This document shows positions 947 through 36,420 of a stretch of DNA of 64,000 bases, one piece after another (within the stretch, counting starts at the first letter, position 1; the number at the start of each line of letters is the position of its first letter). The translations under genes were made by a program, and so were the position numbers. The stretch comes from Epilithonimonas caeni DSM 17710. Lineage in GTDB: Bacteria > Bacteroidota > Bacteroidia > Flavobacteriales > Weeksellaceae. The DNA is taken from the NCBI RefSeq assembly GCF_000426465.1, contig NZ_AUFK01000014.1:124001-188000 (forward strand). The letters run 5' to 3'. The notes under the pieces are model-generated. The model had not been told where the DNA came from, did not search any database, and was given only the letters and a program-made list of their open reading frames with translations.

Positions 947-3175
947 CTAATCTTTTACAAATTTAGTTTTAACTACAATTCCATTATTATCTATGTTGAT
1001 AAAGTAAACGCCCTTCGTTAGTCTGTTAACCAAAACCTTGCCCGTTGACAAAGTTCCCTTGGAAACGATCTGACCTGCAGTATTGAAAATCTCGTAAGAT
1101 GAAGAAGGAGAAGCATTAGAAACATTCAGTACATCTTTTACAGGATTTGGATAAATCTGAACGGATTTTGTATTAACATCCGATACTGCCAAATTGGTTT
1201 TTGTAATTGTAAAGTTCGCATCCGAAACATCGAAGAAAATATTTCCGTTAGCTTTTACCATAATTCTTGCAGTTGTTGTATCCAGATTTGGAAGAATAAC
1301 AGATTCGGAGCCATCATTAGGTACCGAAGTTGCCAAAGTCGACCAAGTAGTGCCACCATCCGTAGAGATCAGGATGTCAACATTGGCACAACTGACTGGT
1401 GATGCAGTAGTAGAAGCTACATCCCAAGTTACTGTCTGTGTACTTGCACCAGCATAACTAACCGCAGTGTTGGGAGCCGTTACTTTGAATGGGCCAGAAG
1501 CCTCATTGACTGTAACTTTCATATCATCATAACCATTAGCTCCTCCTCCTGTTTTATTATCCCTCACGGTCAGTCTGAAATTAAGCGTTCTTGCAACACT
1601 TGGAAGGTATTCTACATTTAATTCTGTAGCAGCAGTGAAAAGTGCACCGGTCAAAACAGTTGTCATATTAGGAAAATATCTTGTTGGAGAAGTTGTCGGC
1701 AAATAAGACCTGAAATTAACGCCCGAAGTTTTTGTTGCCGTTGGATTTGTTGTTGATGAGTTTTGAAGATCAAACTGCTCCCAATCATAAGTAAGACTAT
1801 CCCCATTAGCATCAGTTGCGGAGCCTGTTAACATAAAAGGAGTACTTTTCGGAATTGTATAATCCGCTCCGGCGTTTGCAACAGGGGCAGTATTCCCGTT
1901 AGAGGTATTTACCGAGCAATTCCCTAGTGTAGTTTTCATATAATTCGTTATATCCCTGATCGAAGCAGCATGGAAATAAGCATCAGAATGTGCCTGAACA
2001 TCTTTAGCAGTAATCCCGGCATATCCCATGATCGTAGAACCGGAACCAGGCTCCATTTGTGACGGGTTACCTTCTGCCCCATGTGTAAAAGTATGCCATC
2101 CTCCAAATTGGTGGCCCATCTCGTGTGCCACATAATCTATATCAAAATTATCTCCAACAGGTGTACCACTTCCCGGGGAAGTAAATCCCTGTCCCTTATG
2201 CTTATACCACTGGTAAGTTGAGTCATATGTATTACTGCTATCGCACACACATCCTATACACCCGGCAGAACCACCTCCACCAGAACGTCCAAACAAATGC
2301 CCAATGTCATATTTAGCATCTCCAATACCATAAGTTGTTCCCATTAAAACAGCCTTAAGCTCGTTATTCCAAGCTCCAGCAGCTCCTGTAGCCGCTGCCG
2401 AATATGGATCCGTGCTTGCACTTGTAAAAATGATATTTTCTTCCTCAGCAATTAGGTTCAAATGAATGGAAAATTCACTTTCAAAAACACCATTTACACG
2501 TGTCATTGTATTATTCATTCTAGCTAAAGCATTGGCTACCGACCCTGCCCAGGCACCATATTCTCCCGTACAAGACAACGCCAATCTGTATGTTCTTAGC
2601 AGTCCATCATCAGCACTCTTTCCATCTACGTTATCGGAATTCCTTTTTGTAAGATTAGGAACTTTACATTCAAATTCTTTCGCAATACCTTTATCATCTG
2701 TTCTTTTGAAAACAACATAAGAAGACAGGTCTGCCGTGTATGGCTCTATGATATCAACGGTCCTATCGCTATGCATTTCCATTGTAGATAAACCAAATTG
2801 AGAAACACTAAAGTAGATTTTCGAGTCTCCAAATACGCTTTCACCAACATAGGATCGGATGTCAGCATATTTCTCCTGCAATGCTGGTTCAAAATTTGAT
2901 TTTTCATAGATCCTGAAATCTTCAAATTCACCCTCAGAATTTGGAAAACTTAAAATGATTTTGGAATTTATATGATCAGTGCTTTTCGGAGCTCCTTTCA
3001 AAGCCTCTTTCAATCCTGTATGATCCAGGGAGTACAAATTTGGATTTTTAAGAAACCGCATATTTTCTTCAATAGCGGATCTGTTTGAGAAAGATGTTCT
3101 TTTCCACAACTTTCCGGTTTGCGCAATTCCAGCTAAGGATGCTGAAATCAACGCTAGTGATAAAACTTTCTTCAT
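947..3175 (-). CDS. Secreted reprolysin-like zinc metalloprotease with T9SS sorting domain
   Basis: 742 residues. The signal peptide is MKKVLSLALISASLAGIAQ. The N-terminal half is a propeptide-like region. The catalytic zinc motif VAHEMGHQFGGWHTF (HExxHxxGxxH) lies at about residue 350, followed by a Met-turn candidate (GSTIMGYAG), as in reprolysin/M12B-like metzincins. A cysteine-rich segment (GCIGCVCDSS) precedes it. After about residue 430 come PKD/Ig-like beta domains (TAPVANAGADYTI) and a C-terminal type A sorting domain (IYPNPVKDVLNV to KTKFVKD) that targets the protein to the type IX secretion system. It probably digests extracellular proteins. It is unusual in lying inside the ribosomal S10 cluster, between rpsJ and rplC, and is bounded by terminators on both sides. 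Confidence 0.9.
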   Translation of the reverse strand: MKKVLSLALISASLAGIAQTGKLWKRTSFSNRSAIEENMRFLKNPNLYSLDHTGLKEALKGAPKSTDHINSKIILSFPNSEGEFEDFRIYEKSNFEPALQEKYADIRSYVGESVFGDSKIYFSVSQFGLSTMEMHSDRTVDIIEPYTADLSSYVVFKRTDDKGIAKEFECKVPNLTKRNSDNVDGKSADDGLLRTYRLALSCTGEYGAWAGSVANALARMNNTMTRVNGVFESEFSIHLNLIAEEENIIFTSASTDPYSAAATGAAGAWNNELKAVLMGTTYGIGDAKYDIGHLFGRSGGGGSAGCIGCVCDSSNTYDSTYQWYKHKGQGFTSPGSGTPVGDNFDIDYVAHEMGHQFGGWHTFTHGAEGNPSQMEPGSGSTIMGYAGITAKDVQAHSDAYFHAASIRDITNYMKTTLGNCSVNTSNGNTAPVANAGADYTIPKSTPFMLTGSATDANGDSLTYDWEQFDLQNSSTTNPTATKTSGVNFRSYLPTTSPTRYFPNMTTVLTGALFTAATELNVEYLPSVARTLNFRLTVRDNKTGGGANGYDDMKVTVNEASGPFKVTAPNTAVSYAGASTQTVTWDVASTTASPVSCANVDILISTDGGTTWSTLATSVPNDGSESVILPNLDTTTARIMVKANGNIFFDVSDANFTITKTNLAVSDVNTKSVQIYPNPVKDVLNVSNASPSSSYEIFNTAGQIVSKGTLSTGKVLVNRLTKGVYFINIDNNGIVVKTKFVKD

Positions 3176-3360
3176 ATTTTTAAAATTAAGGCGACAAATG
3201 TAATATTTTATTGCGATTATTTTATTATTTCAAAAAAAAATTTAAAATTTTAACAATTTGATTTAATTTATCTATTCAAAAAAGTGTTTTTAATAAATTT
3301 ATCAAATAAATTATTTAAGTTTTTTTTAAGCTGTCTTAATTTTTTTAGCATTCCAATATG

Positions 3361-3742: not shown

Positions 3743-5860
3743 TTAACCTTTTGCTTTAGCAATGATATCTTCAGCAACGTTTTGCGGAGTAGCCTGATAC
3801 TTCTCTAATTCCATAGAAGAAGTAGCTCTTCCTGATGAAAGTGTTCTTAGAGTAGTTACATATCCAAACATCTCAGACAATGGAACTGAACCTTTGATAA
3901 CAACGGCACCGTTCTTTTCTTCCTGTCCACTGATTGTTCCTCTTCTCTTGTTAAGGTCACCAATGATGTTACCCATATATTCTTCCGGAGTTACAACCTC
4001 CAATTTCATAATAGGTTCCATAATCACTGGCTTAGCAGCACGTCCCGCTTCTTTGAATCCTAATTTAGCAGCCATTTCAAAGGAAAGAGCATCAGAATCC
4101 ACCGCGTGGAAAGATCCATCCTTAAGAACAACTTTAATACCTTCAACTTCGAAACCAGCCAAAGGACCGTTTTTCATTGCAGCTTTAAAGCCTTTTTCAA
4201 TTGCAGGAACAAATTCCTTAGGAACGTTACCCCCTTTGATCTCATTGATGAATTCTAAACCAACTTTACCTTCGTCTGCAGGTCCTAGTTCAAATACAAT
4301 GTCAGCAAATTTACCTTTACCTCCAGATTGCTTTTTGTAAACCTCTCTGTGGCTGGCAACTTTTGTTAAGTTTTCTTTGTACTCTACCTGAGGTTGTCCT
4401 TGGTTTACTTCAACTTTGAACTCTCTCTTCATACGGTCTACAATGATATCCAAGTGAAGCTCACCCATACCAGAGATGATCGTTTGTCCAGAAGCTTCGT
4501 CTGTTCTTACAGTAAATGTAGGATCTTCTTCAGCCAATTTAGCTAGAGCGTTACCCATTTTATCCTGGTCAGCTTTAGTTTTAGGCTCAACAGCGATACC
4601 AATTACCGGATCAGGGAAAACCATTGATTCTAGAACGATCGGGTTTTTCTCGTCACACATTGTATCACCAGTTTTTATAGATTTGAATCCAACAGCAGCA
4701 CCAATATCACCAGCTTCAATATATTCTACCGGGTTTTGCTTGTTAGCGTGCATCTGATAGATTCTTGAGATTCTTTCTTTATCTCCTGAACGAGTGTTCA
4801 AGATATAAGAACCAGCATCCAGTCTTCCAGAATAAGCTCTGAAGAATGCTAATCTTCCCACGAACGGGTCAGTAGCAATCTTAAACGCTAGAGCAGCGAA
4901 AGGCTCATCTACAGATGGTTTTCTTGTGATCTCAGCATCAGTTCTTGGGTCAGTACCTTTGATATCATCTTTATCTAATGGAGATGGCAAGTATTTACAT
5001 ACTGCATCCAGCATAAACTGTACTCCTTTATTCTTGAATGAAGAACCACAAGTCATTGGGATAATAGAAAGATCGATAGTCGCTTTTCTAAGAGCTTCGT
5101 TGATTTCCTCTTCAGAGATAGAATCTGGATCTTCGAAGAATTTCTCCATCAAAGTCTCATCGTAGTCAGCAACAGCTTCTACTAATTTCTCTCTATATTC
5201 CAGAACTTCAGCCTTCATGTCCTCAGGAATTGGCACTACCTCGAAAGTAGCTCCTTGTCCTGCTTCATCCCATATGATCGCTCTGTTTTTAATTAAGTCA
5301 ACTACACCTTTGAAGTCCTCTTCTGAACCGATTGGTAAAACGATTGGAACTGCATTAGATCCCAACATCGTCTTAACCTGGTTTACCACATTAAGGAAGT
5401 CAGCACCTTGTCTGTCCATTTTGTTTACGAATCCCATTCTAGCAACTTTGTAGTTGTCAGCAAGTCTCCAGTTTGTTTCAGACTGTGGCTCCACTCCATC
5501 TACTGCAGAGAAAAGGAATACCAATCCATCCAATACTCTCAAAGATCTGTTAACTTCTACTGTGAAGTCAACGTGTCCCGGTGTATCAATGATGTTGAAG
5601 TGGTAAGGTTTAGTTTCTGGTAAAGTTTTTCCTTGGTCTGTTGGAAAGTTCCAAGAACAAGTAGTTGCAGCAGAAGTAATTGTAATACCTCTTTCTGCTT
5701 CCTGCTCCATCCAGTCCATTGTAGAAGCACCATCGTGAACTTCACCAATTTTGTGGTTTACACCTGTATAGAATAAAATCCTTTCTGTAGTGGTAGTCTT
5801 ACCTGCATCAATGTGAGCAGCAATACCAATATTTCTTGTAAATTTAAGATCTCTTCCCAT
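3743..5860 (-). CDS. fusA: Elongation factor G
   Basis: 705 residues, the normal length. The GTPase domain has G1 [15 protein letters not shown], the switch region [12 protein letters not shown]3 DTPGHVDF and G4 [10 protein letters not shown]. Domains II to V follow, including the domain IV loop region ([18 protein letters not shown]) and the ending [11 protein letters not shown]. It drives GTP-dependent translocation of tRNA and mRNA on the ribosome and, with RRF, ribosome recycling. It sits between rpsG (6-base gap) and rpsJ (17-base gap) in the str operon. Confidence 0.98.
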
Positions 5861-10857: not shown

Positions 10858-10963
10858 AGGAGCTTGATCCCGCTATCCGCTGTATCTTTTTTTCGCTCGG
10901 TCGGCTTCGCTGCGCTCCGCCGCCTCACTCAAAAAAGGATGCCGCTACTATCGGGGCTATTAA
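10858..10963 (+). repeat. Large intergenic hairpin repeat, copy A (follows the LRR gene)
   Basis: The 5' module AGGAGCTTGATCCCGCT-A-TCC is followed by ATCTTTTTTT, a GC-rich palindromic middle (CTCGGTCGGCTTCGCTGCGC), AAAAAAGGAT, and the 3' module GCCGCTACTATCGGGGCTA. The same 5' and 3' modules with a different middle occur at 36348-36420 (minus) and, more diverged, at 21584-21717 (minus). Short reading frames through it have no protein character. It lies 6 bases after the LRR stop codon, in the same direction. Confidence 0.8.
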
Positions 10964-21496: not shown

Positions 21497-21545
21497 TTGT
21501 CATTCCTTAGGAATCTAAACTGCTGAAATCCCTAAGGAATGACAA
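21497..21545. repeat. Perfect 15-bp inverted repeat, Chryseobacterium-type intergenic repeat
   Basis: TTGTCATTCCTTAGG (21497-21511) and CCTAAGGAATGACAA (21531-21545) are perfect reverse complements around a 19-base loop. The motif GTCATTCC-TAGGAATCT is a dispersed repeat in flavobacterial genomes as far as I recall. It lies in the 443-base gene-free stretch 21305-21747, which also holds copy C of the large hairpin repeat. I see no gene in that stretch. Confidence 0.8.
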
Positions 21546-21583: not shown

Positions 21584-21717
21584 TGCGCCCGACTTGAGCG
21601 GAAATCATTTTTGCCAACCTTCGAGTTCTATATAAACTGAAAAATCTCTGCAAAAAAGATTGGGAGCCCTTCGACAAGCTCAGGATAAACTACAGGCGGA
21701 TAAAGGCGCCCAATCCT
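21584..21717 (-). repeat. Large intergenic hairpin repeat, diverged copy C (follows the serine hydrolase)
   Basis: Read on the minus strand it starts AGGATTGGGCGCC, then TTATCCGCCTGTA, a short REP-like unit (CCTGAGCTTGTCGAAGGG), AATCTTTTTTGC, a loop, GCAAAAATGATT and the end TCCGCTCAAGTCGGGCG. The order of modules and the 3' end (compare TTCCACTGCAATCGGGGC in copy B) mark it as the same family as copies A and B. It begins 30 bases after the serine hydrolase stop, in the same direction. The GATTGGG-GCC / GGC-CCCAATC stem followed by TTTTTTG could also terminate that gene. Confidence 0.65.
21667..21684. repeat. Short palindromic repeat nested in copy C
   Basis: CCCTTCGACAAGCTCAGG differs by one base from the repeat inside icmF at 12289. 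It interrupts the 5' half of the larger hairpin element, so it may have inserted later. Confidence 0.75.
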
Positions 21718-28326: not shown

Positions 28327-28454
28327 TCGTTTAAATTTTTGTTGTTAAAATTTATTGGAATAAAAGGGGCAAAAAGAATTAGCAATGAAAAATCAATAAT
28401 TTATAATCTCCGGAAATTACATTTTTATTAATTTTTTCAATTTTTAATTATTCA

Positions 28455-28545
28455 TTAAAAATCGTTTCCCTAAACAGCATTATCTGTTCTAGGTTCATTG
28501 GGTATAATCTCAGCTTGTTACAGCACCCCTTAAATTTCTGACTGC
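28455..28545 (-). promoter_or_regulatory. TPP (thiamin pyrophosphate) riboswitch
   Basis: Reading the minus strand, the canonical THI-element blocks appear in order: GGGGTGCTG (28520-28530), GCTGAGATTATACCC with the invariant CTGAGA (28508-28513), GAACCT (28491-28496), ACAGATAATGCTGT (P4-P5 region, 28474-28489) and AGGGAAACG (28463-28471). These are the pyrimidine- and pyrophosphate-sensing arms of TPP riboswitches. The element lies about 130 bases before the TonB receptor start and just after the WG-repeat gene stop (28565). Expected effect: lower expression of the receptor when TPP is high. Confidence 0.93.
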
Positions 28546-36347: not shown

Positions 36348-36420
36348 CAATAGCCCCGATTGCAGTGGAAATCCTTTTTCTTTGAAAAAGATTGTAACGG
36401 AAAGCGGGATCAAGCTCCTA
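36348..36420 (-). repeat. Large intergenic hairpin repeat, copy B (follows ribH)
   Basis: Minus strand: AGGAGCTTGATCCCGCT-T-TCC, then AATCTTTTTC-AAA-GAAAAAGGATT (hairpin), then TCCACTGCAATCGGGGCTA. The first 17 bases are identical to copy A at 10858 and the last 10 (ATCGGGGCTA) are too, while the middle is different and shorter. It begins 22 bases after the ribH stop, in the same direction as ribH. Confidence 0.8.

Follow-up and report, generated by a model that had tools for sequence, protein, structure and literature searches.

Flavo-1 (RF01705) is a hairpin-forming sequence motif, related copies of which, designated here A, B and C, occur in a 64,000-nucleotide stretch of the Epilithonimonas caeni DSM 17710 genome (contig NZ_AUFK01000014.1, positions 124,001 to 188,000; hereafter the window). 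Judged by their sequences, all three belong to a single interspersed repeat family made up of Rfam Flavo-1 and a type II subfamily, and the evidence as a whole suggests that the family behaves as a DNA repeat whose orientation is set by chromosome replication, and not as a constant tail of gene messages. We lean, with confidence only a little above even, towards viewing Flavo-1 as a REP/ERIC-like DNA repeat that forms an imperfect hairpin and is gained and exchanged in connection with the replication fork. Listed in catalogues from 2010 on as a Bacteroidetes element, Flavo-1 is assigned no function in the accessible portions of the literature searched; a table in the survey that describes it, in the part available, enters 'y' for RNA and 'n' for cis-regulatory (Weinberg et al. 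2010, PMC2864571). In Rfam it is classed as a small RNA (sRNA) gene.

Copies A (10858..10963, minus on the Rfam strand) and B (36348..36420, plus, downstream of ribH) exceed the Rfam cut-off of 42 bits, with scores of 63.1 bits over 10862-10962 (minus) and 74.6 bits over 36348-36415 (plus), respectively, and Flavo-1, which the initial annotation had proposed for comparison, is thus the match. Both are type I; the inner helix is CATCC/GATAY in A, where it encloses 42 GC-rich bases, and AAATCC/GATTG in B, where the loop is short. Copy C (21584..21717, plus, corresponding to the Rfam strand of A and B) is of type II (GCnCCCGACTTGAGCGG ... GGCGGATAAAGGCGCCC) and is interrupted by a nested repeat; it falls short of the Flavo-1 gathering score, with no Rfam match up to an E-value of 10, and is matched over 21587-21713 by a profile built from 54 type II copies. 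Scores about or under the Rfam cut-off are typical of this subfamily. Profiles derived from other copies, with the window's own copies and one orthologue containing the core of B left out, recovered A, B and C at E 2.1e-19, 1.3e-18 and 5.6e-17, and nothing else in the window below E 0.1. A 15-mer shared by these two type I copies is present at two places in the window, exactly both times, where 0.72 matches with up to three mismatches are expected. The three related elements of the initial annotation are therefore real, A and B by Rfam's curated score and C by the type II profile; C belongs to a second subfamily, and in it the inserted repeat replaces part of one arm. The strand it had taken (the reader's strand below) is opposite to that catalogued in Rfam for A and B.

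The relation to replication emerges from three closed genomes of the genus, where the Rfam strand is opposite to the leading strand in 189 of the 273 matches listed (p 1.9e-10): 84/123 in G015, 63/91 in G022 (91 of its 106 matches included) and 42/59 in G019 (59 of 68). This exceeds the coding bias (p 0.002 versus 60%). The leading strand was assigned by third-position GC skew, with breakpoints picked from skew samples and their antipodes after strand clustering had been noticed; the resulting replichores are consistent with all 11 of the 16S genes found, and shifting the breakpoints by up to 200 kb yields 81-84, 58-63 and 37-43 opposite-strand matches in G015, G022 and G019. Matches above the cut-off (46/72) and weaker ones (38/51) are biased alike in G015. 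Among the 113 of 273 matches that could be placed among genes, using a simple custom gene caller, 32 were opposite to the leading strand and antisense to codirectional neighbours, 18 opposite and sense, 11 same and antisense, and 7 same and sense, so that the opposite orientation prevails in antisense (32/43) and sense (18/25) settings as well as in convergent or divergent gaps (30/45); the total of 80/113 compares with 58% of codirectional gaps running with the leading strand (p 0.006). Orientation tracks replication whichever way the neighbouring genes run. The Rfam strand sits on the leading-strand template, and the lagging-strand template bears the reader's strand. Since sites are common to the three genomes, these are not independent samples. 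Other repeats, considered as an orientation control, were too sparse (8 versus 8, 3 versus 2, 20 versus 10 for a set that is a near-palindrome, and 9 versus 4; none at p<0.05). We found no account of the replication orientation of Flavo-1 in the accessible parts of the open-licence literature searched.

Read on the Rfam strand, type I has the form TAGCCCCGAT-nGnA-RYGG-(AAATCC or CATCC)-TTTT, a variable interior, and then AAAAGAT-..A-RYGGA-nAGCGGG-ATnAAGCTCC; type II reads GCAGCCCGACTTGAGCGG ... GGCGGATTAAGCTGCCC, the inner part of a third form is TTACCCC...GAGGAGTA, and a fourth has GGGAT versus AGCCC arms. Arm pairing was analysed in 195 different copies, of which 49 come from E. caeni loci, by a parser that demands intact anchors, so that the sample leans to intact arms. 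Over seven pairs (1365 cells), 1322 cells were Watson-Crick, against a mean of 907 after shuffling, with 18 G.T, 7 A.C and 18 others, the excess of G.T over A.C being slight (p 0.043). Compensatory change is thus strong, as at pairs 14-63 (TA 109, AT 40, GC 32, CG 10, other 4), 18-59 (GC 122, AT 69, GT 4) and 19-58 (CG 142, TA 48, TG 5), and the constant paired ends and variable paired middle of the initial description are borne out. Purine-purine mismatches are conserved between the short covarying helices (12-65: A.G 168, G.A 19, other 8), and resemble sheared G.A pairs. The Rfam strand usually folds better, in 180/195 copies with DNA parameters and 159/195 with RNA parameters.

Copies are numerous and unevenly distributed; all genome counts are lower bounds, as only part of the first-look candidates were scored. 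The genome of E. caeni has at least 60 matches at E <= 0.001 (at least 39 over the cut-off), in keeping with the expectation of further copies genome-wide, all 23 genomes examined in the genus contain Flavo-1 (from at least 46 to at least 124 matches each), and in a class sample it occurs in at least 57 of 149 genomes, at least 35 of them with a match over the cut-off. Copy number is patchy, with at least 0, 2, 12 and 24 in the four genomes of one genus of the class sample (g24). High-copy, intergenic, imperfectly palindromic and without a gene of its own, Flavo-1 has the properties required of ERIC/BOX-like repeats.

Individual sites are long-lived and their contents changeable. At the ribH site, the element is present and the same way round in all 19 genus loci with both flanks (E. 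caeni included), in a survey where L093 has a remnant only, L078 and L079 are damaged, and six more loci lack a flank; the inner types vary among short and long type I, CCTGC/CAGGG arms and the third form, and the copies in L077 and L092 hold a nested repeat. The closest named ribH relatives are Epilithonimonas at up to 97% identity, records nearest to the window having possibly been left out. Among 25 of 80 named ribH loci that were read, some of which may duplicate genus genomes, seven close relatives (ribH identity of at least 91%) bear the element and 18 others show none, two of the latter (L242, L289) sharing the start of the downstream gene. Its occurrence in the genus and close relatives, and not in those 18 loci, leads us to infer one Flavo-1 gain at this site near the base of the genus.

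A finer comparison was made with G006, a close relative whose ribH region is 94% identical to that of E. caeni, by anchoring 40 of the 60 own sites (40 candidates scored), 37 of them with both flanks: inspected by eye, 32 of the 37 retain the element or a remnant and 5 do not. Copy A is also present there, its interior unchanged. In the 26 sites parsed in both genomes, 5 have an identical core, 13 have loops below 75% identity, 8 show at least one two-sided pair change (5 of them two or more), and 5 have changed inner type. Two-sided changes number 15 and one-sided changes 9, and two damaged copies account for six of the one-sided ones; 2 of the 15 and 3 of the 9 are unreliable because they fall in L064, which is broken by a nested repeat. 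The clear cases are a third form turned into type I (L038/L144), a type II turned into type I (L057/L120), four pairs differing at once (L055/L143), and outer arms kept around a different inner part (L013/L136). For these cases block change needs fewer events than point mutation. Between species, a site stays occupied and its inner hairpin, in some instances together with both arms, is altered blockwise.

If Flavo-1 is such a replication-linked DNA repeat, copies would be gained during replication, and resident copies would have their hairpins overwritten from other copies during the same process, through template switching or some single-strand enzyme. Single-stranded exposure at the fork would drive both insertion orientation and exchange, the bias arising from which strand is single-stranded there; and placement near gene ends would reflect tolerance in intergenic gaps and not a role in the upstream message. 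A more specific statement, that Flavo-1 is a single-stranded DNA hairpin repeat and not an RNA gene, keeping its chromosomal address as it trades its inner hairpin, and at times both arms, with other copies by a process coupled to replication, is one that we put forward tentatively. The covariation behind its RNA label would on that view be maintained by the exchange of entire hairpin blocks, of which only foldable ones are recognised or tolerated.

Several observations weigh against this reading. The orientation bias is moderate (69%), the worst breakpoint shift leaves G019 at 37/59 (p 0.07), and at the ribH site, that of copy B, all three genomes (G015, G022 and G019) show the less common orientation, the G015 site being just 34 kb away from the breakpoint used. 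When each is folded by itself with RNA parameters, copies A, B and C do better on the reader's strand (-33.4, -16.1 and -40.2, versus -31.2, -15.7 and -27.2), by far the most so in the insertion-bearing C. Hairpin stability does not differ between the two orientations (means -15.8 versus -16.1, p 0.61), which also leaves unsupported the idea that orientation arises by loss of more stable hairpins from one strand. A clean empty site with target duplication was not found, the five elementless G006 sites showing no clean junction by eye; a donor copy was not demonstrated for any block change; and no mover was found or partner transposase shown. In L327, from a distant Bacteroidia genome of another family in the class sample, a Y1 transposase fragment (PF01797, E 8.1e-9, 4552-4818, minus) lies between two Flavo-1 copies, and this may keep a Y1 link possible outside the genus.

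Of the alternatives, a functional structured RNA, acting as an independent sRNA or a cis element with copies kept for their RNA fold, is unlikely, if less so than the other two. In its favour are the strong covariation, the excess of G.T over A.C and better RNA-parameter fold on the Rfam strand, and the conserved purine-purine mismatches. It is at odds with a Rfam strand that runs against replication in more than two-thirds of matches, unusual for a gene class, with copies lying sense, antisense, convergent and divergent, and with a flank profile that has no conserved promoter-like block beyond the element ends. Transcript data from F. psychrophilum also run contrary to it, in the part of that study accessible, where Flavo-1 hits fall on either strand of transcribed regions without distinction, and many do not correspond to transcribed regions (PMC9723704). 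One of the two suggestions of the initial annotation was a structured RNA of the 3' untranslated region (3'-UTR), its orientation fixed relative to the upstream gene. Such a 3'-UTR element, read in the direction of that gene and serving as a terminator, a processing site or a stabiliser of mRNA, seems to us very improbable, even though all three window copies fit. They follow a leucine-rich repeat gene with a type IX secretion system sorting tail (A), ribH (PF00885; B) and a PF00144 serine hydrolase gene (C), at 6, 21 and 30 bases from the stop, the first and last of these distances being as originally given and the ribH one a base shorter than the 22 stated. Genome-wide, with genes predicted by the custom caller mentioned above, the neighbours of the 60 own copies, oriented by the Rfam strand, are (-,-) 27, (+,+) 14, (-,+) 13 and (+,-) 6, so that only 27 of 60 run as annotated, 14 being reversed, 13 between divergent and 6 between convergent genes. 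The annotated direction is in weak excess, both among codirectional own copies (27/41, p 0.06) and in the closed genomes (43/68 with the Rfam strand antisense, p 0.038), and such copies are closer to the upstream stop in 33/43; yet 14 of the 41 point the other way, the replication bias is equal in sense and antisense copies, and neither A nor B, the two scanned, has an intrinsic terminator pattern.

Mobilisation in trans of REP-like elements by RAYT, a Y1 HUH transposase, is improbable, somewhat less so than a 3'-UTR role. Single-strand hairpin anatomy combined with replication-strand bias would suit it, as would the Y1 proteins in 21 of the 23 genus genomes and the fragment in L327. The two remaining genomes, G001 and G021, have no PF01797 match despite at least 90 and at least 109 Flavo-1 matches; the four Y1 loci (PF01797) of E. 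caeni itself (G000) have no Flavo-1 match at E <= 1 in the 17.8 kb scanned; and no GTAG or CGTC tag is conserved in the flank profiles of types IA, IB, IC, IIA, IID and IVA. RAYT as the present mover in the genus is thus disfavoured by the copy-rich genomes without Y1 and by the Y1 neighbourhoods of E. caeni. Further afield, 20 stretches with distant copies were taken, and in the seven that were gene-called (L315-L319, L322, L327) no insertion sequence closely bracketed by Flavo-1 was seen by eye. The initial suggestion of a non-autonomous mobile element holds in part: patchy copy number within genera and the gain placed at ribH agree with it, but no target duplication, clean young insertion or partner transposase was shown.

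As a DNA repeat, Flavo-1 can be set beside several known systems. ERIC, BOX, RUP and Correia-type repeats are intergenic imperfect palindromes of about 100 bases, BOX having constant ends and variable middle modules, whereas a Flavo-1 copy stays in place and has its middle replaced. REP/REPIN elements with RAYT are likewise imperfect hairpins that occur between genes in high copy number and favour one strand, but Flavo-1 is about 70-130 bases long with variable interiors, besides differing in the tag and Y1 features noted above. The Flavo-1 of Rfam shares the covarying hairpin and variable tip, takes in A and B by score and has type II around its cut-off; it leaves C undetected, and its sRNA type contrasts with the replication-oriented DNA repeat favoured by the present data. 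IS200/IS605 elements, in the accessible part of the source, target single strands on the lagging-strand template (PMC6006769). Single-strand hairpins and a replication-strand preference are common ground, as an analogy only. No transposase lies between Flavo-1 ends, and the Flavo-1 Rfam strand is on the leading-strand template and its complement on the lagging-strand one.

The repeat nested in copy C, CTTCGACAAGCTCAGGATAAACT, occupies 21669..21691 (plus) inside the 3' arm. The module CTTCGACAAGCTCAGgATAAACT was found in 22 distinct contexts among the loci examined, and by eye at the identical 3'-arm spot of 11 Flavo-1 copies of several subtypes (window 21669-21691, L063, L077, L139, L150, L184, L187, L189, L209, L213 and L235); a script filter flagged 11 contexts, two of them false, and missed three. 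It also occurs in the 5' arm of one Flavo-1 copy (L064) and, always at one position, in a different repeat family (TTCGCAAAGnCA...ACAAACTCATCAAAG), and its core letters were not found in the open-licence literature searched. In the alignment showing the insertion in C, row L105x is not an element. A separate palindromic repeat (TTGTCATTCCTTAGG...CCTAAGGAATGACAA) lies immediately downstream of copy C (window 21497-21545), with relatives that recur adjoining or within Flavo-1 copies, and in L317, at about 2700-3200, some 224 bases that include Flavo-1 and a CCCTGTCAGGGTT repeat are duplicated in tandem. Elsewhere in the window, 28449-28540 (minus) resembles a thiamine pyrophosphate riboswitch at 41.8 bits, below the gathering score of 54.3.

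If orientation follows replication and hairpins change as blocks, covariation alone would be no proof of RNA. Were this so, other high-copy orphan RNA motifs could be cheaply re-tested by their replichore orientation in closed genomes, and Flavo-1 would provide a natural case for hairpin exchange at replication forks in Bacteroidetes.
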